From the NCBI GenBank assembly GCA_022828595.1, contig JAKGHH010000001.1, forward strand, positions 143,859,017-143,923,016: a DNA stretch of 64,000 nucleotides, given 5' to 3'. Shown one piece after another: positions 6,200 through 48,050 of the stretch. Each line of letters starts with the position of its first letter. Position 1 is the stretch's first letter. The notes below the pieces were generated by a model. The model was not told the origin of the DNA. It saw only the letters and a program-made list of their open reading frames with translations, and made no database searches. This DNA is from Nelumbo lutea (lineage: Eukaryota > Streptophyta > Magnoliopsida > Proteales > Nelumbonaceae). The position numbers were made by a program, and so were the translations under genes.

Positions 6200-6855
6200 A
6201 TTTCTTTTTCACGCAGGTCTTCACCTCCCACTTCGTCATCAGTAAGAGGTGCCCGAGGACCCAAAAAAGCCTTTTCAGCATAGTCTAGAGGGAAGGCAGA
6301 GTCTATCCGGAACTATGTCAAATGGTTCAATGACGCTTGCTTACAGATACCCGATCTAGACCTTGCAGTTCGGCTCACTGCGGCCAAGCGTGGCATCACC
6401 CACAAGGAGTTCAAATGGCACGTGGTTGTCAACCAATTCAAGACCGTTATCGAGTTCATCGAACTCGTAGATCGATTCATAGGGACAGAGGGGGAGATCA
6501 ATCAGAAAGGGCGATCAGGCCCTTGAAAAAAAGAAAAAGGGAACCGGAGCCCTTGGCTCCAAGTGACAACAAGAAGAAGAAGGACCAAGCTCAGGGGGCA
6601 AGGCCGAGTCAGCCTTTCTGAGCTTCGACAGCAGAAAGGGACTACATGCCCATCAACACGAAGCGGGCCGAGATCCTCATGGCAATCAAGGATGCCCCAT
6701 ATATGAAGTGGCCACCTCGGCCTAAGGCCGACCCCAATGTTAGGAATAAAATTTGTATTGTAGTTTTCATAGAGACCACGATCATAGTACCGAAAACTGC
6801 AAGAACCTCTGCGACAAGATAGAAGAACTTATCCGTCACGGATATCTGAGAAATT
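6200..6855 (+). pseudogene. gag remnant of the Tat-like retrotransposon
   Basis: From about 6210 the translation resembles the gag core of plant Tat/Athila elements: FTSHFVISKR, then ESIRNYVKWFNDACLQIPDL from about 6300 in a shifted frame. Farther down, HRDHDHSTENCKNL (about 6770) and EELIRHGYLRNFVQ (about 6820-6860) correspond to the gag C-terminal zinc-knuckle-like region of this clade. Frameshifts and stops (for example near 6283, 6525 and 6621) split it, and the first part of gag is missing. Confidence 0.75.
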
Positions 6856-7611
6856 TTGTACAGCATAATAATAATAATAACGCAGGTCAGCACGGGGAGC
6901 AGAGTAAAGAAGCTCCTGAGTCCAGCAGACAAGCAGAACAATCGTAGAGGTAGCCTCTCGATGAGAGACCAGTCCGGTCATGTAATTGTCGGAGGATCAA
7001 TTGTCGTGGGCTACACTTCGGCAGCAGCTCAGTCATCAGCCCGCGAGGCTGCCAGGGAAGAGCTTAACCCCCCGAAGCGGCCAAGGGTGGAGGAACCGAT
7101 CTTCTTCATAGAAGATGATGCGCAAGGGGTCCATTATCCCCATGACGATGCGCTAGTCATAAAGATAAAGATCAATGACTTCGAGGTTAGGCATGTTCTA
7201 GTCGACTCGGACAGCTCGGCAGACATTCTCTTCAAGGCAGCCTTCGATCATCTACAGCTCCAGGAAAGCAACCTAAAGCCCGCAAACACTCCACTCGTAG
7301 GATTCAGCGGTGAGGAGGTCAGGCCTTTAGGGAGAGTCACTGTACCTGTGGAGGTCGGCACTTGGCCTAGTGTGGTAAGGCTCAACCATGAGTTCCTGGT
7401 GGTCGCGACCCCCTCCCCATACAATGCAATAGTAGTTCAGCCCATCACCTACGCCTTACGAGCAGTAGTCTCCACCTACCACCTGACAATGAAGTTCCCT
7501 ACAGACTTCGGAGTTGGAGTGATGCAAGGTGATCATCTTGAGTCCCGCAAGTGCTACGTAGCCGCCCTCAAAGGAAAAGCCAAGGTAGCAGACGACCTCG
7601 AGCTAGAATGA
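6856..7611 (+). pseudogene. Aspartic protease region of the Tat-like retrotransposon
   Basis: A 251-codon open frame. Residues from about 80 onward resemble the retropepsin domain of Tat-clade gypsy elements: VLVDSDSSADIL (the catalytic Asp motif, usually D-G/T-G-S in functional copies), followed by LVGFSGEEVRPLGRV and FPTDFGVG. The DSDS form departs from the usual D-[TG]-G-S and may be inactivating. Translation stops at 7611, before RT, so the polyprotein is broken. Confidence 0.78.
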
Positions 7612-7749
7612 CCTGCGGAGCAATTTGCGGAGTGAGCCACACCTATCGAAGAGACCATTCCCGTCCCAGCTTCGGCAGAGGACCCAACTCGGGTACTTCA
7701 GATCGATGCTTCTATTGAGGAACCCCTGCGGTCTCAACTCGTAAGTTTA

Positions 7750-9056
7750 TAAATAAAAAAAATTTAGATGTTTTTGCATGGTCAGCGGTAGAAATGCTTG
7801 GCATAGACCCCAACATTATAACTCATAGGCTCAACACTGATCCTGTAGTTAGGCCCGTTAGACAGAAGAAACGCAACCTAGCCCCAGAGCGATAGAGGGC
7901 AGTCAACGATGAGGTTGGGAAGCTCCTTGCAGCCGATTTTATCAGGGAAGTTCATTACCCAAGCTGAGTGGCCAACCTCGTTCTGGTGAAAAAGGCTAAC
8001 GGTAAATGGCGCATGTGCGTCGACTACACCGACCTGAACCGAGCTTGCCCAAAGGACAGCTTCCCACTTCCCAGGATCGACTGTCTAGTGGACGCGACCT
8101 TGGGGCACGAGTTGCTAAGATTCCTGGACGCCTATTCGAGCTACAATCAGATCAGGATGGACCCAACTAATGAAGAGAAAACTACCTTCATAACCGAGTT
8201 TGGCCTGTACTGTTGCAAGGTCATGCCCTTCGGGTTGAAAAATGTTGGGGCCACTTTTCAGAGACTTGTAAACAAAGTTTTAAAGCCACTAATTGGCATA
8301 AAAGTAGAGTGTTATGTAGATGATATGGTCGTCAAAACCCAATTCTCACATGAATTAATACAAGATTTACATTTAGTTTTCAAAATTTTGCATAGATTTA
8401 ATATGAAGCTAAACCCCAACAAGTGTGTCTTCGGTGTCACCTCGGGTAAATTCCTAGGGTACATCGTTAATCAACGAGGCATTGAGGCCAACTCGGACAA
8501 AATTAAAGCCATCCTAGAAGTGAGACCACCCCGAAAACTAAAGGAGGTTCAAAAGCTGAATGATCGGTTAGTCGCTCTGAGCCGCTTTATGTCCAAATCA
8601 GCAGATCGCTACCTGCCCTTCTTTAAGGCCATAAAAAGCAAAGGCTTTGAATGGACCAAAGAGTGCCTGCTCGCGTTCAACGAGCTCAAAAGGCACCTCA
8701 CCAGCATCCCAGTCATAACCCGACCCAAAGTGGGAGATGTTTTAGAGCTATACCTCTCAAAAAGCGACGAGGTGGTCAGCTCGGTACTAATAAGAGAAGT
8801 AGATCGGGTCCAACGACTCGTCTATTATGTCAGTAAAGTGTTGCAGGGAGGAGAAACAAGGTACCCAAAGATAGAAAAGTTAGCCTATGCCCTGGTCATA
8901 GTAGCCCGGAAGCTTCGCCCGTACTTCCAAGCTCACATCATCGTTGTCCTCACCAACAAACCTCTGAGGCAAGTCTTGCTTAAGCCCGAGGTCTCGGGAA
9001 GGCTGACAAAGTGGGCCATCAAGCTCAGCGAATACGAACTCCAGTATAAACCATGA
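7750..9056 (+). pseudogene. Reverse transcriptase and RNase H of the Tat-like retrotransposon
   Basis: The RT homology starts near 7770 (an AWS-A-EMLGIDP block in another frame), is interrupted by a stop at about 7965, and then runs open for 362 codons. Visible RT blocks are WRMCVDYTDLNRACPKDSFP, FLDAYSSYNQI, VMPFGLKNVGATFQRLV and the polymerase active-site YVDD (about 8314). RNase H follows with LELYLSKSD, LVYYVSKVL and YPKIEKLAYALV. The frame ends in TGA at 9056. Copies DNA from element RNA in functional relatives; here it lies between broken protease and integrase regions. Confidence 0.9.
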
Positions 9057-11289: not shown

Positions 11290-11705
11290 AATGCTTAACT
11301 CGCCTTGGCGTATGCCAGAAGACAGTTTGGGCACATGCCTTACTATGCCTTACTATCAGTCACCTCGGTGTATGCCAGTAAATAGTTCAGGCACATGCCT
11401 TACTATGCCTGTCAATCACCTCGGTGTACGCCAGAAGACAGTTCAGGCACATGCCTTACTGTCAGTCACCTCGGTATACGCCAGAAGACAGTTCGGGCTC
11501 CTGCCTTACTATGCCTTACTGTCAGTCACCTCGGTGTACGCCAGAAGACAGTTCGGGCACATGCCTTACTGCCAGTCACCTTGGTATACGCCAAAAGACA
11601 ATTTGGGCACATGCCTTACTATGCCTTACTGTCAATCACATTGGTGTACGCCACAAGACAGTTCGGGCATGTGCCTTACTATGCCCTACTATGTCAATCA
11701 CTTAG
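11290..11705 (+). repeat. Minisatellite in the gypsy 3' region, about 7 imperfect units
   Basis: A unit of about 50 or 60 bases (cctcggtgtacgccagaaga, then cagttcgggcacatgcctta, and an optional actatgcctt block) recurs from about 11296 to 11700. Unit starts are visible near 11361, 11419, 11470, 11530, 11579 and 11638. Spacings of about 58, 51, 60, 49 and 59 reflect presence or absence of the optional block. The overlapping ORFs here in all three plus frames come from the repeat and are not genes. Confidence 0.9.
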
Positions 11706-15795: not shown

Positions 15796-16874
15796 GGAGG
15801 GAACCAAAGACAACGTGAGCAGAGGATCTTCAGATCTTGGCTTTAAGAGAGAGAGAGAGAGAGCTGTGACGATGAAGCTTTGATTTGGAGCGGATCTAGA
15901 TGGGATTTAGGAGAGAATGGCCTACAAAATAGAGAGAGACAGAGACATGATCGAGGGGCGGCAAATGCTGTCTCTGTGTAAACAAAAATTTGAGAGGAAG
16001 CGATAAAGCTGATTCAGTTTGCAATTTGCAGTGCACCCGGTGGAACTGGAGAGGCGTTGTTGTAGAGCTGGAACTGGAACTGAGGCTGGTTCAGCGCTTC
16101 ACTTCCCTACTGTTGAACTGTAACTGGAACTTGGCTTATGCATTTACGACGCCGGTGGAACTGGAGAGGCGTTGCCAGTGAACCGAACGGGTGGGCTTTG
16201 GCTTCGTGGTCCCAGCATTATGAAAGGTAAAAGGAATAAAAGGATGAGATCTCAGACCCACCCACATCCGCTGCCAGTGGCTTCTGCGTTCAGTGAGATC
16301 GCCGGTCACAGGTAGATGCTTCTGGGCTAGGGGTTGGCGGAAAAAAGTATAAGAGGGTGTGTTATAACTTTTTTGTCTTTTTGTATCTGGTTCAACCGGA
16401 TTTTGTAACTAACAGCTAAACGTCTGTTAAAGTTAATAAATTTTAAACACGCCAACGTGGGCGTTTGTGGCGTGTGAGGAGGAATCTGGTGGCAATTGTG
16501 CTTACTTTTCCAGTTCTACAACGGACCTCTTGGATGGAACGCGCAACGGGAAACGTTGCTCCGGTATGTTCTCTCTCTCTGCTTTCTTTTAACTTTTCAG
16601 AGAGAATTTTTATGACTATTACAACTACTATATCGTTCAACACATAAAATATAGAGTAGGAAAATTTACATAAGCGACGAACTTGAAGTTGGAATCGGAG
16701 ATGGAGTTGGAGTTGGAGCTCTTCCATCATCTGCCCGACCGAGTCTATTGGACACAACCAGAGACTCGGAACACCACGACCACGACCGCTGGAACAGACG
16801 GTGGGTTTGCTGGCTTCGTCAGCCCCTGTGAAGGCTGGCAGCTGCACACATCGGCGAATCAGCGGCACCCCTCT
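15796..16874. other. Flank of the ATL pseudogene up to the starch-synthase element
   Basis: Contains a (GA)n run at about 15846-15862, compatible with the former 5' leader of the ATL gene. It also has a 21-base direct repeat (ggtggaactggagaggcgtt plus g) at 16039 and 16154, and a ggagttgga-type run near 16700. Open frames here match nothing I recognise. The last bases before 16875 are cccctct, containing the target-site copy of the next element. Confidence 0.55.
16870..16874 (+). other. Target-site duplication, left copy (CCTCT)
   Basis: CCTCT immediately precedes the LTR start (TGTTATG) at 16875 and recurs at 20701-20705 directly after the 3' LTR. The matching pair defines 16875-20700 as a single inserted element. 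Confidence 0.85.
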
Positions 16875-17624
16875 TGTTATGTCACACCATCCGGCAAGGC
16901 ACTGCGGCGCCGTCATAGGCAGCAGCACACACAGCAGTGGGCACCGCCTGCAGCACTGCACAGCAGCATGCACCGTCGATAGTGCGCAGCACACACCGCA
17001 GGCAGCAGCGCGCACCACACGCACCGCATGGCAGCACGCACCATGCACACGCCTGGCACCGCACGGCAGCGGCACCATGGCGCGCAGCACGAACCGCCAT
17101 GTAGCAGCGCGCACCGCACGCATTGCACCAGCACGCACCGCGCACACCCGTACCGCACGGTAGCAACACCATGAGGCGCGCGCGCACGGCAGCGGCACCT
17201 GAGGCGCGCGTACGCACTACGCGCACGCACCGCGCGGCAGCCAGCAGAGCAGTAGAGCAGGGCCCACACGACAGCTCATAGGGTGGGCCCATCCTTATCT
17301 GGACTCATCAAGCCAACTCGCCGCCAACTTACCTTATCCTTATCTTATCCCTTATCCCTTATCCTTATCTAATCTCATCTTTATCTTATCTTAAGTAAGA
17401 GTGAGTTACCAATAGGAGTAGGTAATTAGGAGTTTGAGTTCAAATTGGAGTTTGAGTTTAATTAGGAATTTTCTTCTGTAATCTCCTATTTAAGGAGCTA
17501 CGAATTGAAATAGAGCATTCAGTTTTCCAGTCAAGAAAAGAGTGAGGAGAGTTTGGGTGGTCTCTTGGACAAATCACTCATTCAGTTTCCGTAATCGGGT
17601 CTGCAAGCAAGGGAAGGCGCACCG
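16875..17624 (+). repeat. 5' LTR, main part
   Basis: Starts TGTTATGTCACACC (one G fewer than the 3' LTR start). The first 400 bases are a GC-rich, internally repetitive tract built of gcagcacgcaccg-like words. A run of cttatc words (17331-17390) and a promoter-like segment with TATTTAA at 17487-17493 follow. Similarity to the 3' LTR stops after caagggaaggcgca (about 17621), where the inverted insert begins. Cys/Arg-rich and Ala/His/Arg-rich ORFs in all frames of the GC-rich part are compositional, not genes. Confidence 0.85.
17487..17493 (+). promoter_or_regulatory. TATA-like box of the 5' LTR
   Basis: TATTTAA in a ctcctatttaaggag context, conserved at 20462-20468 in the 3' LTR. It lies about 135 bases upstream of the left inverted arm, so a transcript starting just after it would run through left arm, loop and right arm in that order. 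Confidence 0.6.
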
Positions 17625-18708
17625 GCAGCGTGCGCGCAGTGCGTACGTGCGCCTCAGGGTGCCGCTGCCGTGCGCGCGCCTCATGGTGTTGCTACCGTGC
17701 GGTACCGGGTGTGTTGCACGGTGCGTGCTGGCGTGCAGTGCGTGTGGTGCGCCGCTGCTACCTGGCGGTTCGTGCTGCGCGCCATGGTGCCGCTGCCGTG
17801 CGTGCCAGGCGTGTGCATGGTGCGTTGCTGCCATGCGGTGGCGTGTGTGTGCGCGCTGCTGCCTGGCGGTGCGTGCTGCGCACTATCGACGGTGCATGCT
17901 GCTGTGCAGTGCTGCCAGGCGGTGCCCACTGCTGTGTGTGCTGCTGCCTATGACGGCGCCGCGGTGCCTTGCCGGATGGTGTGACCATAACATTACACCC
18001 CTCCGGACTACGAGCTTGTCCTCAAGCTCGTGTTCTGGATACATGGCTTGGGATTCTACGAATGGATCCAACGACTGCACACAATTTCTCAGTCCAGCAA
18101 CAGTATGAACAATAGGGACTGCCCTGTCTCTCCGTGCGTCACGCTGGATTATTTGGTGCCGATCCCAGCCACCTTCTTTTGTTTCCCGCTCCCAGGCATA
18201 GCCATGGCTTACAGTGACTAACGCTCTGCTGCACTCAGGCCAGCCGCAAGGACATTGAAGTGTTCCCTACCTCCTGGGTCATATAGTTTGAAGTAGTTTT
18301 GTGAAAGGTCCACATAACAGAAATCACGTACTGGACCACGACCCCGTTGTGCTCTATTGTGGATCATAAGAATGCTGTTACCGGGTATGCTTACAGTAGA
18401 GGACCTCCAGAGCGGCCTTACCGAAGAGGACCATGCGTTTTAAAATATCCTCTCGGCCTTCCCCATATATTTTTTCCTCAATATTACAAAACATAGGATT
18501 GTCCATGAACACAAAATCTTTGTCATCAATATAAGCTTGGAAGAAAATTACCTCTATATCCTGCCCCTCCACCTTACATCTCTTGCGCACTCCTGTTTCT
18601 TGGATTTCTGTATAGTTACCATATGGTGGTGCTACAACCATAACTTTATGTCCACGCTGAGCCAAGGCCTTCGGTAAAGCCCCAGCAACATTGCCAAGCC
18701 CACCTGCC
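17625..18708 (-). repeat. Left arm of the 1.08-kb inverted repeat
   Basis: Reverse complement of about 19114-20195. It contains, in reverse order, GC-rich LTR sequence (about 17625-17995), the LTR start and polypurine region (about 17985-18015), the pol-like tail, and the starch synthase fragment (about 18140-18708). Differences from the right arm are few: one extra base in the ccgggta(a)cagcat region (about 18383), and an A/G change giving Asn in place of Ser in the FVFMD-S/N-PMF stretch. The junction with LTR sequence at 18707-18708 lies at a shared cc. Confidence 0.92.
18140..18708 (-). pseudogene. Antisense copy of the captured starch synthase fragment
   Basis: On the minus strand this reads [56 protein letters not shown] and [17 protein letters not shown], the same starch synthase segment as at 19109-19675. 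An extra base near 18383 shifts the frame in the TRYSIL region, so the downstream half is out of frame in this copy. It is part of the left arm and is antisense to any transcript started in the 5' LTR. Confidence 0.88.
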
Positions 18709-18744
18709 GACCCGTGACGGGATCCTACATGCGGGACCATAACA
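18705..18744 (+). repeat. Remnant of the 3' end of the 5' LTR
   Basis: The block from ccgacccgtgacgggatcct to gaccataaca equals the last bases of the 3' LTR (20663-20700) apart from one substitution (catg / cgtg). It is separated from the rest of the 5' LTR by the 1.08-kb inverted insert. About 40 bases present at this point in the 3' LTR (aggggaagcagggctttcgc and following) are missing here. Confidence 0.85.
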
Positions 18745-18746
18745 AT

Positions 18747-18759
18747 TGGTATCAGAGCC
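18747..18759 (+). other. Primer-binding site, initiator tRNA-Met type
   Basis: TGGTATCAGAGCC starts two bases after the LTR end. This is the standard plant primer-binding sequence complementary to the 3' end of initiator methionine tRNA. It confirms that the LTR boundary at 18744 is the 5' LTR of this element and that the rearrangement lies inside that LTR. Confidence 0.92.
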
Positions 18760-18767
18760 AAAACGTC

Positions 18768-19109
18768 ATGGGCGATATGGAGAAGTTGTCTTCCAAGGTC
18801 CACGAACTGGAACACCAACTTGCAGAAACTAGCATGGAGGTTCGTGAAGTCAGGGAAGACATCCGGGAGATGCAACGCCTGCTGGAAGCATTCCTCTCCA
18901 ACAAGGAAATGAGTTCGGAGGGAATCGCCAACACCAACAGATGCCGTCCGGACTGGGCAGAGGCATGCAACGAACAACAGATCGCTGCCCCTACAGCCGT
19001 AGTTATTTCCAAAGATCAGCGCACGGAGGATGAAACTGTAAAGTCTCCTCTTTTGGTCAGGGACAATGTCACGAACATTATAGAGAACCTGCTGAATGCA
19101 CTCCTTTGA
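18768..19109 (+). CDS. Short gag-like ORF (113 aa)
   Basis: Begins with the first ATG after the primer-binding site ([20 protein letters not shown]) and ends with TGA at 19107-19109. The first 50 residues are charged and heptad-like ([19 protein letters not shown]), as in the N-terminal coiled coil of many plant gypsy gag proteins. No zinc knuckle or nucleocapsid part is present. The frame ends exactly where starch synthase homology begins, so the gag was probably cut by the capture event. It forms most of the loop between the inverted arms. Whether it is translated is unknown. Confidence 0.6.
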
Positions 19110-19801
19110 CGAAGGCAGGTGGGCTTGGCAATGTTGCTGGGGCTTTACCGAAGGCCTTGGCTCAGCGTGGACATAAAGTTATGGTTGTAGCACCACCATA
19201 TGGTAACTATACAGAAATCCAAGAAACAGGAGTGCGCAAGAGATGTAAGGTGGAGGGGCAGGATATAGAGGTAATTTTCTTCCAAGCTTATATTGATGAC
19301 AAAGATTTTGTGTTCATGGACAGTCCTATGTTTTGTAATATTGAGGAAAAAATATATGGGGAAGGCCGAGAGGATATTTTAAAACGCATGGTCCTCTTCG
19401 GTAAGGCCGCTCTGGAGGTCCTCTACTGTAAGCATACCCGGTACAGCATTCTTATGATCCACAATAGAGCACAACGGGGTCGTGGTCCAGTACGTGATTT
19501 CTGTTATGTGGACCTTTCACAAAACTACTTCAAACTATATGACCCAGGAGGTAGGGAACACTTCAATGTCCTTGCGGCTGGCCTGAGTGCAGCAGAGCGT
19601 GTAGTCACTGTAAGCCATGGCTATGCCTGGGAGCGGGAAACAAAAGAAGGTGGCTGGGATCGGCACCAAATAATCCAGCGTGACGCACGGAGAGACAGGG
19701 CAGTCCCTATTGTTCATACTGTTGCTGGACTGAGCAATTGTGTGCAGTCGTTGGATCCATTCGTAGAATCCCAAGCCATGTATCCAGAAACACGAGCTTG
19801 A
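19109..19801 (+). pseudogene. Captured starch synthase (GT5, SSII-like) fragment fused to a pol-like tail
   Basis: An uninterrupted reading frame. It opens with [17 protein letters not shown], the ADP-glucose-binding K-x-G-G-L region at the start of the GT5 catalytic domain. [69 protein letters not shown] and RVVTVSHGYAWERETKEGGW follow. The order and wording fit soluble starch synthase II best, by memory of the family. About 45 residues normally between the KAALEV and TRSIL blocks are missing, no intron is present, and homology stops after GGWDRHQII (about 19675). The tail (DPFVESQAMYP) looks like a gypsy pol C-terminus. It cannot be an active enzyme: the C-terminal Rossmann domain is absent. 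Confidence 0.87.
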
Positions 19802-20195
19802 GGACAAGCTCGTAGTCCGGGAGGGGTGTAATGTTATGGTCACACCATCCGGCAAGGCACCGCGGCGCCGTCATAGGCAGCAGCACACACACAGCAGTGG
19901 GCACCACCTGGCAGCACTGCATAGCAGCATGCACCGTCGATAGTGCGCAGCACGCACCGCCAGGCAGCAGCGCGCACCACACGCACCGCATGGCAGCACG
20001 CACCATGCACACGCCTGGCACCGCACGGCAGCGGCACCATGGCGCGCAGCACGAACCGCCAGGTAGTAGCGCGCACCGCACGCACTGCACGCCAGCACGC
20101 ACCGCGCACACACCCGGTACCGCACGGTAGCAACACCATGAGGCGCGCGCACGGCAGCGGCACCCTGAGGCGCGCGTACGCACTACGCGCACGCA
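19114..20195 (+). repeat. Right arm of the 1.08-kb inverted repeat
   Basis: Sense arm matching the reverse complement of about 17625-18708. The loop between arms (18709-19113, about 405 bases) holds the 5' LTR end, primer-binding site and gag-like ORF. The arm extends from the first starch synthase codons through the polypurine tract and about 360 bases into the 3' LTR. Confidence 0.92.
19812..19831 (+). other. Polypurine tract of the starch-synthase element
   Basis: The gtagtccgggaggggtgtaa stretch directly before the LTR start TGTTATGG at 19832. It has the expected position and is mostly purine in its core. Confidence 0.75.
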
Positions 20196-20700
20196 CTGCG
20201 CGGCAGCCAGCAGCAGCAGTAGAGCAGGGCCCACACGACAGCTCATAGGGGTGGGCCCATCATTATCTGGACTCATCAAGCCAATTCGCCGCCAGCTTAC
20301 CTTATCCTTATCTTATCCCTTATCCCTTATCTCTTATCCTTATCTAATCTCATCTTTATCTTATCTTAAGTAAGAGTGAGTTACCAATAGGAGTAGGTAA
20401 TTAGGAGTTTGAGTTCAAATTGGAGTTTGAGTTTAATTAGGAATTTTCTTCTGTAATCTCCTATTTAAGGAGCTACGAATTGAAATAGAGCATTCAGTTT
20501 TCCAGTCAAGAAAAGAGTGATGAGAGTTTGGGTGGTCTCTTGGACAAACACCCTCTTAGGAGAGTTCGGGTGGTCTCTTGGACAAATCACCCATTCAGTT
20601 TCCGTAATCGGGTCTGCAAGCAAGGGAAGGCGCAAGGGGAAGCAGGGCTTTCGCACCGTGGACCGACCCGTGACGGGATCCTACGTGCGGGACCATAACA
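19832..20700 (+). repeat. 3' LTR (869 bp), complete copy
   Basis: Begins TGTTATGGTC and ends GACCATAACA, a perfect 10-base inverted terminal repeat. It contains the GC-rich tract, cttatc words (about 20303-20372), TATTTAA at 20462 and the end block also seen at 18705-18744. Compared with the 5' LTR it has a tandem duplication of about 45 bases (gagagtttgggtggtctctt twice, 20522 and 20568). It is followed by the CCTCT target-site copy. Confidence 0.9.
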
Positions 20701-22011
20701 CCTCTTCAAACACTGAAGAGTGAAGACGCAGCTGCGCACAGCGGCACCCCATTCTTGCTCCGGTGGCAGCGATGAACCCTCTTCCAACGAAAACAGAGGG
20801 CAGAGGGGAGAGAGAGACAAGAGGTTGAGAATGGAGAGAGACAGAGGCGGAGGAGAGAGAGAGTGGGGGCTCTGGTACGAGGGCAATATTGGATTTTAAA
20901 AAAGTGTATAGGTCACGTGGAGTTACATGTGCATACATTGTGAGAGAACATTAATTAACGTTAACATAGTGTTAGTCAATTGTCAGAAACAAAGAATAGT
21001 GTTAGTTAATTTTCAAACATTAAAGGTATATTTACCTAAATTATAAGATAGTTTAAGAAATTTACACTTAATTTTATTGGGAGATATTCCCAACGAAATT
21101 GAGATCTATTCCACAGATAGATAGGATCTGCTCTTCACAAATGGGCGTCTCACATGCACATCCACCATGTATTGGAAGCATCTCCTGTGAATAATAATTA
21201 ATAAGTACAGGAATATTTCTGATGCATGGTAGAATGTGCATGTGAGGCACTAGGTGTGAGGCACAGATCCGATCTCTTCCACAGGGAGCCTTACATTGAC
21301 CTCACCCTGCATTGAGAACATCTCGCATGAATAACAATGTATAAATACGAGGGATATTCTTAATGCAAGGTGAGATGTGCCTGTAAGATCTTGTGAGGCT
21401 CCCTGTGTGAGGAGGGTTTCGTTCTCAACGTGCATTGAAAACATCTCCTAATTTTATTGAGGGATGTTCCCCAATTCACAGTTGGGATGTTCTGTACTTT
21501 TATTGGGAAACATCTTCCGGTATGTATGACTGTATGAGGGTGGGCTCACGTCACCTTATAAGATCCAGCCTTTAAATTTAGCGTATCATTTAAGGGTGTT
21601 TTTGTCTTTTTAAAATGGGCACACCGTTTGATCAATGATTGGTAGTGTAGCATCAGACAACAAGAGCAAATATATTTCATATTTGTGTTATGATGAATCG
21701 AATTTGAAAAGAAAGACCAGCCCACGAATCAGATGGCTGCTTATAGTCAAACAATAATTAAACCCATGGATTTTGATTATTCTTTTTACCATAAAAAAAT
21801 AAAAAATCGTCAAAAATAGTCAAAAATCAAAATCCATTAATCGATTAAGAATAGAAAGATAAAACCAACGATTGCACACAGGCATCACTGCCGGAAGTTC
21901 CAACTACCAACCATGAGAGTTCGAGCTCTCGAGTAGCAGGAGCCAGGAAGAGAGAAAGCTTTCTTTTGGCCTTCTTGGGGTTTCTTTCGGAGGGAGTTGG
22001 ACACTTGACCA
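20701..22011. other. Flank between the element and the purine permease gene
   Basis: Starts with the right target-site copy CCTCT. Contains a gagaga-rich stretch (20800-20865), the two adjacent stem-loops listed separately, and from about 21540 AT-rich sequence likely to include the promoter and 5' leader of the permease gene. No other gene is seen. Confidence 0.6.
21145..21412. repeat. Two adjacent fold-back (stem-loop) sequences
   Basis: First hairpin: tctcacatgcacatccacca (about 21149) pairs with tggtagaatgtgcatgtgag (about 21226-21245), with further pairing inward. Second hairpin: ccacagggagcc (about 21279) pairs with ggctccctgtg (about 21393), and inward cctcaccctgcat pairs with atgcaaggtgag. 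Both share a gcat..acatctc theme, so they are probably related MITE-like fold-backs. They lie about 600-860 bases upstream of the permease start codon. Confidence 0.75.
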
Positions 22012-24186
22012 ATGGATATCGATTCCTCCCAAAAACAAGGTTAATTTTCCCTTTCTTGTATATTAATCGAATTTTGAACCAATTCAAGCTTCATATCAAA
22101 CTTTCACTCTGATTATTTCCCAATTTTTTATTTTCTTGCAATTTTCTTCTCTCAAGTGCCTGTTTTTTCGTAGATTTTAGCATTTCTCTTCTTCGAATTA
22201 ATTAATTACTTGTTTTAAGTTGTGGGTTGTTTGTATTTTGTTTCCCTCTTCTGAATGCAAATGTAGAAAATTTGGGAAACCATTTCCGGGTTATTTCAAT
22301 CGGTAGCCTTCAGAATTATGTCATCTCTTTTGTGGGCTTGGAGCAATTAGATTCTTGGAATTTATTCTGAATTCTGTCCTGTAAGGTTGTTTTTGTCTTG
22401 TTTGATTGTTTGCTGGTATATAACTTACAGTTTTTGTTTGGGTACTTTGATGGAAATGAACTGTTACTAAGCTGTTTGTAGCAAGTTGTATAAGAAAGAT
22501 TCAAGGCGTTTGTGCCCTTTTATGCTCCTAACCTTGCAGAGACCTACTGCGAACGGAACTGGAAATATAAAAACATATAAACTAGGATTAGCTGTACTGG
22601 AATTCTTATAAGATTGATGTCAAGTACGCCCATATATCCTTTCCAGGTTTGAGTTTACTTTTCTAAGCAAAAGATGCATAATAATAGAAGGAACTTTAAA
22701 AAGATAATTCTAAGACAATTTTTCCTTGATCAATCTTGAAAAATTTCCAATCCTTTTCATCCACCCTCTAGAATTCTGCCTTTGTTGCATTAATAAACTG
22801 AATTACAACCTGGCGGGGCAGAATTTTCTTTTTCTTTTTCTTTTTTCATATGCTAGGCCTTCAAGAGACAGGTTACTGTCAGCCTAAAAGGAGAACATGA
22901 AGCCTGCTTCACTCTTAGACCCTTTCTATTGTTTTTGTTTGTTCACTTACCTAGGTCTTTGCAGGAATTGTGCTAACTAGCTTCTTGTCTTCTTTATCAT
23001 AATAGGCAGTTTGCAGGTTCTGGTTTAATTAATTCATATCTGTTCTGGTAACGCAATAAACTCTTCCTTTTTTTGTTCTAATTTTTTCCATCTGATATGA
23101 GTAGATACTCATATTCAAACTACAACAAGGGAGACATCATCAGGATCCCCCAACTCCTTATGGAGGAAAATTTCCAAGTTTAGTACCATGGCTTGGGAAA
23201 CATACAGAACGAAGCCAGCCTCATACTGGATTTTGCTATTTCTAAGCAGTGGGGCAATGCTTCTGGCTTTTCCTGCTTCCAGCCTCTTATCTCGTCTCTA
23301 TTATGCCAATGGGGGCAAGAGCAAGTGGATCATATCATGGGTGGCAGTTGCAGGGTGGCCTCTGACTACTCTATTCTTGGTTCCTATATACTTTCTCACC
23401 AATACTCAGCCCACTGCTCTTACCTTCAAACTCGCTCTCTCTTATATTTTTTTGGGCTTCTTAAGTGCTGCTGACAACCTCATGTTTGCATGGGCTTATG
23501 CCTACCTCCCGGCATCAACCGCTTCTCTTCTTGCATCATCTTCCCTTGTGTTCTCTGCACTCTTTGGGTATTTTATTGTGAAAAACAAGTTGAACAGCTC
23601 CACCATAAATGCCATTGTGATCATCACTGCTGCCATGGTTATCATTGCCTTGGATTCAGAATCAGATAGGTATAGCTATATCAGTAACAAGCAATATATT
23701 ATGGGATTTATCTGGGACATTTTGGGATCAGCTCTCCATGGACTAATCTTTGCTCTTTCAGAATTAGTTTTTGTGAAATTACTGGGGAGAAGATCCTACC
23801 ATGTTGTTTTGGAGCAGCAGGTCATGGTTTCTCTATTTGCATTTATCTTCACCACAATTGGGGTCATTGTGAATAATGACTTCCAAGGCATGAAATCTGA
23901 AGCTAAAAGTTTCAAGCATGGGGAAACTGCATACTGCATGGTCCTCATCTGGGGTGCTATTACTTTTCAACTGGGGGTGTTAGGTGGCACTGCTGTGCTC
24001 TTTTTGGCCTCTACTGTGCTGGCTGGTGTTCTTAATGCAGTAAGGGTACCTCTCACAAGCATTGCAGCCGTTATCTTGTTTAACGATCCCATGAGTGGTT
24101 TCAAAATACTCTCACTGATAATTACTTTTTGGGGATTTGCATCATACATTTATGGTCATTCCTCTCTGAGTAAAGGGTCCATGTAA
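22012..24186 (+). CDS. Purine permease (PUP family), 2 exons, 370 aa
   Basis: Exon 1 is 22012-22039 (MDIDSSQKQ plus one base), donor gttaat; exon 2 is 23102-24186, acceptor tatgag. The joined frame is intact (1113 bases with stop), and the start is the first ATG of a short exon as in many PUP genes. The product has about ten hydrophobic segments of the drug/metabolite transporter fold, for example SYWILLFLSSGAMLLAFPAS, KWIISWVAVAGWPLTTLFLV, AWAYAYLPASTASLLASSSL and ILSLIITFWGFASYIYG. Family members are proton-coupled importers of adenine, cytokinins and related compounds, mostly at the plasma membrane; the substrate here is unknown. It resembles the PUP10/11-type subgroup. Length fits the family (about 350-390). 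A decayed paralog lies 4.7 kb downstream. The intron (22040-23101) shows no gene. Confidence 0.93.
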
Positions 24187-28112: not shown

Positions 28113-28924
28113 CGAATTCTTACGGTTATCGGCACCATTGCTCAAGTTCGTGGTTGGTTGGCTTCATGGAAGTCAAATCATCGGAATAACAAGGTAAATA
28201 AATAAAATGATACTCTTTGAATTGATGTAAACTTCAACAGCTTTGGAATAACGTAGAAATTCCTTCTCTATTTTTGGTAGAATAGAATAGAAATTTCTAG
28301 TGTATTATAACTTCAGCTTTCTTCCCACAATGCAAGCTTGGGATTCAAAGATAACAAGCTTGTTTCATTTTTCCATTTATAAAATGCTCTCGAGCTACAA
28401 CTTTCAGTAGGTTTGTATTTGTATTTCTAAACTGAGCCTTAAAAACAAGACCGAGGACAGAGAAGAAAGACAAAATGACTTGCTGATCTTTGATTTATTC
28501 CTATCTTCCTTGTATTTTGTAATGAACTTAGACCTTAGGAGGGGGAGAAGAAACCAGAAAATAGAAAGCAATTTTAGTCCTAGCTCATTTCCTTTGGCCA
28601 CGACTATCCCCTAATTACTTTTTGTTCTACCTTCACTGTAAACCACCCACTTTCACCAATTCAATTGGGTTCCATTTCACCATTTTATGTTCTTTTTTGT
28701 TTTCCCGATTCCTTTCAAGTTTTTGGTTAATTGGTTTCTTTTCACCCTCATTAATTTCTGCGGGATTTATTCTAGGTAGGTTTTTGTCTTCCTCATCCAT
28801 CCAATTCAATTCTCCTTTATCAGCTATTGCAACTTTTGAGTGGTCAGTTTACTATTTCAATATATTCATGCTTCTCATAATCATACACTCTTTTTCCTAA
28901 CTTCTGTTTTCCTCTTCTGGGCAG

Positions 28925-29990
28925 ATGTTTTTGTTCAAATTACTGAAGAGGGGGCATCATCAGGCCCTTCTGTTCCATACTGGAGCAAGTTTTCAAAACA
29001 AAGTTTGACCACATGGGAAACATATAGAAAGAAACCCATGTCATATTGGATTCTGCTACTTCTAAGCAGTGTAGCTTTGCTTGTGGGTTTTCCTGCTGCT
29101 AGCCTCCTATCTTGGGCTCTATTATGCTGCTGGGGGAAGAGCAAGTGGATCATTGCATTGGTGGCAGTTGCAGCATGGCCTCTAACTGCTGCCTTCTTAC
29201 TTCCTTTGTACCTTGGTAACACCAAGCCCACTGCTCTTACTTTCAAATTAACTGTCTTATGTTATATTGGGCTCAAGTGCTGCTGACAACTTCATGTTTG
29301 CATGGGCTTGTGCTTACCTCCCAGCATCAACTGCTTCTCTTCTAGCTTCATCTACTCTTGTGTTTTCAGCAATCTTTGGCTACTTTATAGTGAAAAATAA
29401 ATTGGACAGTTGCAGTCTAAATGCCATTGTAATCATCACTGCTGCTATGGTTATCATTGCATTGGATTCAGATTCAGACAGATGTAGCTATACCAGTAGT
29501 AGCCAATATAACCTGGCAGTTTTCTGGGAGATTATGGGATCTGCACTGAATGGTCTTATCTTTGCTCTTTCAGAGCTACTTTTTGTGTAGTTACAAGGGA
29601 GAAGATCCTTCCATGTTGTGTTGGAGCAGCATATAATGGTTTCTGTGTTTTCCTGTGTTTACTACAATTGCTTTAATTGTAAATGGGGATTTTCAGGGAA
29701 TGAAGTGTGAAGCTAAAAGTTTCAAACATGGAGAAGCCTCATACTACCTGGTTCTCATCTGGGCTTCTATTACTTTTCAGCTAGGGGTTTGGGGGGAACA
29801 GGCCTGCTCTATCTGGCTTCTACTGTGCTGACTGGTATTTTTAATGCAGTAAGGGTACCTCTTACAAGTGTTGCAGCTGTCCTCCTTAATGACCCCATGA
29901 GTGGTTTCAAGATCCTCTCATTGATCATCACTTTCTGGGGATTTTGATCATACATCTATGGTCTTCCTCTCCCATTAAATAATCCACATA
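28925..29990 (+). pseudogene. Second purine permease (PUP) copy, decayed
   Basis: Collinear with exon 2 of the permease at 23102-24186. It follows a ctgggcag acceptor and reads DVFVQITEEGASSGPSVPYW, then TWETYRKKPMSYWILLLLSS and KSKWIIALVAVAAWPLTAAF. Disabling changes include a short deletion near 29265 (frame lost before SAADNFMFAW), a TAG at 29588-29590 (K to stop), further frameshifts around 29650 and 29793, and a TGA at about 29946 in ITFWGF-SYIYG. No equivalent of the 9-codon first exon was recognised. It is a tandem duplicate that has lost function. Confidence 0.9.
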
Positions 29991-46114: not shown

Positions 46115-46624
46115 TTTAATATGAATAACATTATATTAGAGTGTTTGGTTACAAAGTTCATACCATGGGCCTCATTCTTTTAGAATGAAAAATCAGCCCA
46201 TAACACAAAATTGAAGTTGCTTGCAACATGAAAAATAATTATGCCCCATCTTATTCATTTTCATTCTTTAAAGTAATTATATGCTTTAATATGAATAACA
46301 TTATATTAGAGTGTTTGGTTACAAAGTTCATACCATGGGCCTCATTCTTTTAGAATGAAAAATCAGCCCATAACACAAAATTGAAGTTGCTTGCAACATG
46401 AAAAATAATTATGCCCCATCTTATTCATTTTCATTCTTTAAAGTAATTATATGCTTTAATATGAATAACATTATATTAGAGTGTTTGGTTACAAAGTTCA
46501 TACCATGGGCCTCATTCTTTTAGAATGAAAAATCAGCCCATAACACAAAATTGAAGTTGCTTGCAACATGAAAAATAATTATGCCCCATCTTATTCATTT
46601 TCATTCTTTAAAGTAATTATATGC
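46115..46624 (+). repeat. Tandem array of three 170-bp units, apparently identical
   Basis: The landmark atgaataaca occurs at 46121, 46291 and 46461, exactly 170 bases apart. The units read identically from tttaatatgaataaca to aagtaattatatgc, giving 3 x 170 = 510 bases. No coding content. Identity between copies indicates a recent event or homogenisation, or an assembly artefact. Confidence 0.95.
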
Positions 46625-47545
46625 CAACAGTTATAAACTATCCGTCTAGGTCTACAAAACCACCAGCATAAATGTTTATTGGTGAACTGCCTTGAAAACC
46701 TATTCCAATGACATCGATCACTAGCCATCCACTGGTAAACATCTATGCCAATAATTTTGGAGACCTAGGTCGATGTTGTATGATTACTAGGTCAGGTGTA
46801 TCATATAAATATGTTTTAAAGAAAAAAAGTAATTTAATCATTTTGAACCAAAACAATAATGAAATGACAATTGAAGATAGTATAATTTCTTTCAAAAAAA
46901 CCTAAACCAATTGAGATTTTTCCCTGCTATACAATAAGCATATATTACCAAATAAGAGTAGTCCAGTCACAAAAAGCAACTAGAAGCATTAATGGATTTT
47001 TTTTTCATTATTAGTTATTAGTTACTATTTTGGTTAAGTATTAGTTATTATTTATAATGCATGATCAAACCATTGCCTCTTTATGATTTTACACTCATAA
47101 TAAAATAAAACCGAATTAACATATAGGATATTTTAGCCACAAAGACGTGAAGAAATTCAAAGACAGATTCACACTTAGGTTGTGGACCAAACTGGTTTAG
47201 ATTTACATGAAAGTGTTATTACACTTAGGTTGTGTTTAGTTTGAAGAAAAGGGTAGGGAAAGGTGGGGAAACCTTAGCCAACTTTCCCTTCTCTACCATT
47301 TCCTTTAAATCCCATACTGCTATAGGGTCCGTTTGGTTCATGGTGAAGACCAGAATTGAAATTGGAATTAAAATCCCCTATAATCAGAATAAAAATTACC
47401 TATTCCCAGTGCCTGTTTGGTTTAGACGAGAATCAGAGTTGGATTCTGATCATTAATTTTTGGTTCATTTGGAAGCAATAATTAGAATCAGTTGAAGTTT
47501 TCCAGTTTTTTATTAGATTATTAAATAAAAAACTGGGGGTAATTT
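46625..47545. other. AT-rich intergenic DNA
   Basis: A gggtccgtttggttcatggt terminus at 47327 marks a possible relative of the MITE at 35240. Otherwise nothing recognised. Confidence 0.45.
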
Positions 47546-47549
47546 TTCA

Positions 47550-48050
47550 TAAATTTCTTCAAAATTTTGGAGGCCAATCTTTCAAAAAGTTACCCAAACA
47601 TTTTAAGGCTAATCTTTTACAAATTTCTTTAGAATTTTGGAGGCTAATCTTAAAAAAAAAAATCCTTAGACATTTGGATGCTAAACTTTCATAAATCTTT
47701 TCAGAATTTTGGGAGCTAACTTTTCAGAAAAGTTTTTAGATATTTGGAGGCTAATCCTTCATAATTTCTTTAGAATATTGGGGGATAATCTTTCAAAAAT
47801 TCCTCAAACATTTGGGGGTTAATCTTTCACAAACCTCTTTAGAAATTTGGGGGCTAATCTTTTAGAAAATTCTTTAAATATTTGTGAGCTAATATTTCAT
47901 AAAATTCTTTAGATTTTTATGGGATAATCTTTCAAAAATTATTAAGATATTTGGAGGCTAATCTTTTACAAAACTCTTCAATATTTTTGGGGGATAATCT
48001 TTCAAAAATTCTTCAAAGTTAAATTGTTTTAGAATTTTGGGGGCTTACCT
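47550..48050 (+). repeat. Degenerate minisatellite, ttggaggctaatctttca type
   Basis: A motif close to atttggaggctaatctttca plus a variable aaaattcttcaga spacer recurs about 13-14 times at roughly 35-40 base spacing, with extensive substitutions. Examples are at 47566, 47637, 47741, 47787, 47845 and 47951. No intact ORF. It is older than the 170-bp array nearby. Confidence 0.82.

Follow-up and report, generated by a model that had tools for sequence, protein, structure and literature searches.

The window, a stretch of 64,000 nucleotides from Nelumbo lutea, contains at positions 16875–20700 a single non-autonomous LTR retrotransposon flanked by a perfect 5-bp target-site duplication (CCTCT at 16870–16874 and 20701–20705). 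The 5′ LTR of this element is divided into two parts. The first, at 16875–17621 on the + strand, begins with TGTTATG and, from its alignment with the 3′ LTR, probably comprises U3, R and the start of U5. The second, at 18707–18744 on the + strand, is the resumed end of U5, which terminates with CATAACA and is 97% identical to 20663–20700. Between them lies an inverted insert in U5 (17622–18707, − strand), delimited by a repeat search and by the LTR and arm alignments. The 3′ LTR extends uninterrupted over 869 bp (19832–20700, + strand). With the insert left out, the two LTRs (16875–17621 plus 18707–18744 against 19832–20700) display TG...CA ends and are identical at 768 of 783 aligned bases, the differences amounting to 15 substitutions, 12 of them transitions, and 13 gap events that include the interruption site. 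A 38-bp segment of the 3′ LTR (20520–20557), part of a near-tandem duplication, is missing from the 5′ LTR between 17544 and 17545, having been either gained by one of the LTRs or lost from the other. A motif search located a TATA-like TATTTAA, a putative promoter element, at 17487–17493 (+ strand) in the 5′ LTR, upstream of the inverted insert as the preliminary description had it, and a second copy of the motif starts at 20462 in the 3′ LTR.

The region internal to the LTRs is short (18745–19831, 1,087 nt) and its + strand is filled by two frames, one gag-like and one similar to starch synthase. The primer binding site, TGGTATCAGAGC (18747–18758, + strand), lies two bases past the end of the 5′ LTR and is presumably of the initiator-Met tRNA type. 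At the other end the purine-rich GGGAGGGG (19819–19826, + strand), a probable polypurine tract, stops 5 nt short of the 3′ LTR and thus does not adjoin it. The gag-like leader remnant runs from the first ATG (18768–19109, + strand) within an open frame at 18678–19109; this frame yields 10 weak Pfam matches, all under the cut-offs (best E 1e-4), and its identity as gag is putative. Pfam searches of 4 of the 13 frames of at least 120 residues that overlap the element gave no match to protease, reverse transcriptase, RNase H or integrase. The element is therefore classed as non-autonomous, the internal frames being without a reverse transcriptase or integrase match. Its layout suggests that it is probably Ty3/gypsy-like.

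Other features are scattered through the window. Pieces of another LTR retrotransposon are found at 6850–9056 on the + strand, with frames at 7968–9056 for reverse transcriptase (PF00078, E 1.3e-29) and RNase H; the frame at 6850–7611 has no Pfam match and, judged by a motif, looks protease-like. No repeat of at least 60 nt common to these pieces and the element at 16875–20700 was listed. Two related purine-transporter-like genes lie on the + strand at 23101–24186 and 28840–29880. The first matches PF16913 with E 2.7e-99 and the piece 28840–29286 of the second matches it below the cut-off (E 0.00048), and the two genes share 80% identity over 97 nt at 23975 and 29784. The first gene, like the starch-synthase piece of the element, is in keeping with a plant source. 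Tandem repeats comprise an array of 50-, 60- and 110-bp units at 11303–11690, located within two overlapping + strand open frames, a 170-bp unit in three copies that are 100% identical at 46115–46624, which are of very recent origin or else a product of the assembly, and a 35-bp minisatellite of about 13.6 copies with 69% matches at 47540–48013. Rfam at gathering scores and ARAGORN returned nothing over the window. A search of a prokaryote genome collection gave 124 pattern matches, none related to the query, a plasmid collection held no match to 17500–20710, and a scan for bacterial promoters and terminators, which is not meaningful for a plant, found 3 where 3.1 were expected and 5 where 3.4 were expected.

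The inverted insert constitutes the left arm of a large foldback. The two arms, at 17628–18708 and 19114–20194, are 1,081 nt each and are separated by a loop of 405 nt, most of which is occupied by the gag-like remnant. The right arm (+ strand) was defined by the repeat search and by the arm alignment, in which 1,066 of 1,075 positions are identical, with 9 substitutions and 11 indel events. Transitions account for 8 of the 9 substitutions, and 4 of the 9 fall at CpG sites. The three longest ungapped blocks measure 330, 188 and 158 nt at 99–100% identity, the longest of them (18379–18708 with 19114–19443) displaying a single substitution, at 19323, and 754 of the 1,061 21-mers of the right arm are perfectly matched in the left arm. 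A chance repeat is ruled out, an agreement of this extent being far beyond chance. The left arm is made of the inverted start of the LTR (17628 to about 17992) followed by an inverted starch-synthase piece (about 18022–18708). Read as its reverse complement, in the order 19114 to 20194, the insert begins in the starch-synthase piece, crosses the purine tract and ends 363 nt into the LTR, and the final 363 nt of the right arm (19832–20194) are the beginning of the 3′ LTR. This results in LTR sequence making up about one third of each arm, and in the start of the LTR being present three times, each time with about two copies of a unit of about 99 bp (16984–17173, 17669–17881 and 19945–20153). 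The preliminary description of a 1.08-kb inverted repeat with a loop of about 405 bases is upheld with slightly refined arm ends. Its arrangement of the parts is revised, as the left arm had been placed after the 5′ LTR and is located inside it, with the end of that LTR resuming before the primer binding site, and as the 3′ LTR had been placed after the right arm and shares 19832–20194 with it.

The two junctions of the insert with U5 are of different kinds. At 18707–18708 the insert and the resumed U5 overlap by 2 nt, CC. The other junction reads CGCACCG (17618–17624), and 3 extra bases separate it from the arm start at 17628; from its sequence, it could be a slip between two copies of CGCA in U5.

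The starch-synthase-like piece in the right arm (19109–19801, + strand) consists of 230 codons and a stop and retains three blocks of the enzyme. The frame 19034–19801 matches the starch synthase catalytic domain PF08323 with E 1.6e-32, and 19109–19801 matches TIGR02095 with E 4.3e-34 and 118 bits, which is below the full-length cut-off of 328. In an alignment to barley starch synthase I (PDB 4hln; whole-sequence E 1.7e-20) the three blocks follow in order. Residues 2–85 of the piece correspond to residues 139–227 of the barley enzyme (47.7 bits) and residues 114–190 to 296–383 (21.3 bits), and the third block, residues 195–218 with 536–559, scores 3.4 bits, which is not significant alone, so that its assignment rests mainly on its order. 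About 40 enzyme residues are absent between blocks 1 and 2 and about 150 between blocks 2 and 3. The frame is open across the right arm and frameshifted in the left-arm copy. The coding portion of the arms had initially been given as 18140–18708 and 19114–19675, which is too short, since the matches extend it to about 18022–18708 and about 19114–19801. The identification of starch synthase in the arms thus holds at the level of domain, family and structure matches, with the reservation that what is present is a piece with two large internal gaps relative to the solved enzyme. Judged by these matches, a cellular coding sequence is captured inside the retrotransposon; the captured fragment is degraded and probably spliced, in which case it would have a cDNA origin, and it may be most similar to the SSII class of starch synthases. 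The window holds no further copy, with 0 shared 21-mers outside about 18000–19900.

The distribution of the insert restricts the time at which it arose. It is confined to the 5′ LTR. The U5 regions of both daughter LTRs are copied from the same strong-stop DNA, and an insert in the U5 of the parent would show in both. Inheritance from a parent element is ruled out by its presence in one LTR only, and for the same reason the insert arose in the last transposition cycle or later. We favour, with a probability of about 0.6, a reading in which the foldback has the structure described above and originated by template switching during that last cycle. The coding region of the retrotransposon would have been replaced by the degraded, probably spliced starch-synthase fragment. 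During production of the present copy, DNA synthesis at the left LTR would then have jumped templates inside U5, run in the opposite orientation over the element's stretch from the starch-synthase piece to U3 and gone back to U5, leaving the 1.08-kb foldback behind. The target-site duplication, the TG...CA ends, the primer binding site and the LTR pair speak for this reading, as do the form of the two junctions and the predicted hairpin energy.

The three copies of the LTR start make the foldback datable. Substitutions private to one copy number 5 for the 5′ LTR and 3 for the 3′ LTR; the left arm has 5, or 4 if a single column at the edge of the junction is dropped. Private indel events, with the alignment ends left out, number 7 in the 5′ LTR, 6 in the left arm and 1 in the 3′ LTR. 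This near-star pattern, from three copies without an outgroup and with few changes, suggests that the left-arm copy is about as old as the LTR pair; the left-arm branch is not shorter than that of the 3′ LTR, a pattern that would place the origin close to the moment of insertion. Similarly, over the LTR start the arms differ at 7 of 360 positions and the LTRs at 8 of 352 (P = 0.80). The main alternative to a switch during reverse transcription is a rearrangement after integration, in which repair of a broken 5′ LTR involved inverted copying of the downstream stretch, with the sister or the same chromosome serving as template through microhomology-mediated template switching. We regard this alternative as possible, with the odds against it. 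The 2-nt overlap at one junction is in keeping with such a repair, as is the closer likeness of the starch-synthase parts of the arms (2 substitutions in 686 positions) than of the LTRs outside the shared part (7 in 429; P = 0.03), whereas the LTR-derived part of the arms has diverged like the LTRs themselves and the three LTR starts are near a star. The contrast in the starch-synthase part is reduced when CpG sites are left out (2 of 686 against 4 of 429, P = 0.21). With all substitutions counted, the arms and the LTRs differ at 9 of 1,075 and 15 of 781 positions (P = 0.06), or by 5 and 8 changes without CpG sites (P = 0.17), and a preliminary comparison that left out the U5 tail and had slightly other denominators gave P = 0.03; all of these P values come from several tests on few changes and are uncorrected. 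The lower divergence of the starch-synthase arms points weakly to a later origin of the foldback or to arm-to-arm conversion.

An assembly artefact, namely a foldback chimera, was also considered and is unlikely. Such a chimera might be suspected from the arm indel events, which exceed the substitutions, and from a number of single-base indels, located in the left arm and the 5′ LTR, that resemble uncorrected read errors; if they are indeed such errors, they would also explain the frameshifts of the left arm. Against it, the arm substitutions are nearly all transitions, close to half of them at CpG sites, the sequence re-enters U5 and the primer binding site precisely, and each of the three LTR-start copies bears private changes. 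Two further points weigh against the favoured reading of a template switch during reverse transcription. The transition-rich divergence of the LTRs (12 of 15) would suit a copy that is old and methylated and may be silent, and the purine tract stands 5 nt away from the 3′ LTR.

Both arms would lie within one transcription unit starting from the 5′ LTR and its TATA-like motif. A transcript of 17515–20550, its start guessed at 28 nt past the motif, was folded in silico with a predicted energy of −2,585.3 kcal/mol and with 1,071 of the 1,081 left-arm bases paired with the right arm. Five controls in which the insert was shuffled base by base, dinucleotides not being kept, folded at −1,022 to −1,056 kcal/mol. 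Transcription from the TATA box of the LTR would yield an RNA that forms a long double-stranded hairpin. The signal AATAAA was not found in 19832–20900, where, of seven signals sought, only the variants AAGAAA and AATAGA occur, and because of this the end of the transcript is not evident. If the LTR promoter were active, the duplex of about 1 kb would be cut into siRNAs by Dicer-like enzymes. The primary targets of these siRNAs would be the LTRs of the element itself, with a host starch synthase coming second, given sufficient identity. Production of siRNAs from the foldback is a tentative prediction of this model and less likely than not, and it is improbable that a host starch synthase is truly affected. 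The two large gaps in the captured piece, together with the share of about one third that the LTR has in the arms, would make the element's own family at least as likely a target as a host gene.

The locus had been proposed to be a hairpin that silences the host starch synthase in trans, a function that would be compatible with either origin of the foldback. The near-perfect predicted hairpin, preceded by an LTR that has a TATA-like motif, and a right-arm frame that stays open over all its codons speak for such a locus, but large parts of the enzyme are absent from the captured piece, the missing AATAAA leaves the transcript without an evident end, and the transition-rich divergence suggests that the element has been methylated; we consider this function improbable. 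A reading that joins the two levels, in which an accident of reverse transcription created a hairpin gene whose LTR part would silence its own family and whose captured part would silence a host starch synthase, is equally speculative, and if true would represent the one-step birth of a dual-target silencing locus. Few cases are known, to our knowledge, of the birth of natural hairpins that silence transposons and genes. An element in which a single LTR carries its own promoter region and captured gene in inverted copy would display a direct route to such a hairpin, through a single template switch within one cycle of transposition.

Natural silencing loci of the inverted-repeat type have been described before. 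The hairpin anatomy attributed to the locus in the preliminary description stands as a predicted fold. The capture itself resembles that of Bs1 of maize, which, like other LTR retrotransposons, carries captured gene fragments, and in which cellular coding sequence likewise lies in the internal region between the primer binding site and the purine tract; unlike the foldback element, Bs1 is not known to have an inverted copy inside an LTR. The soybean I locus, an inverted-repeat chalcone synthase cluster, shares with the present locus inverted copies of a plant metabolic gene and potential double-stranded RNA. In contrast, the copies at the I locus are chromosomal gene copies, and here a gapped gene fragment is joined to LTR sequence inside a retrotransposon. 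Mu killer (Muk) of maize is an inverted duplication of part of MuDR whose hairpin silences the family. The source of Muk is a DNA transposon, and its small RNAs and silencing have been demonstrated, whereas the Nelumbo element is an LTR retrotransposon for which both are hypothetical. Both are inverted, partly duplicated copies of a mobile element, and in both a hairpin transcript would cover the element's own terminal sequence.
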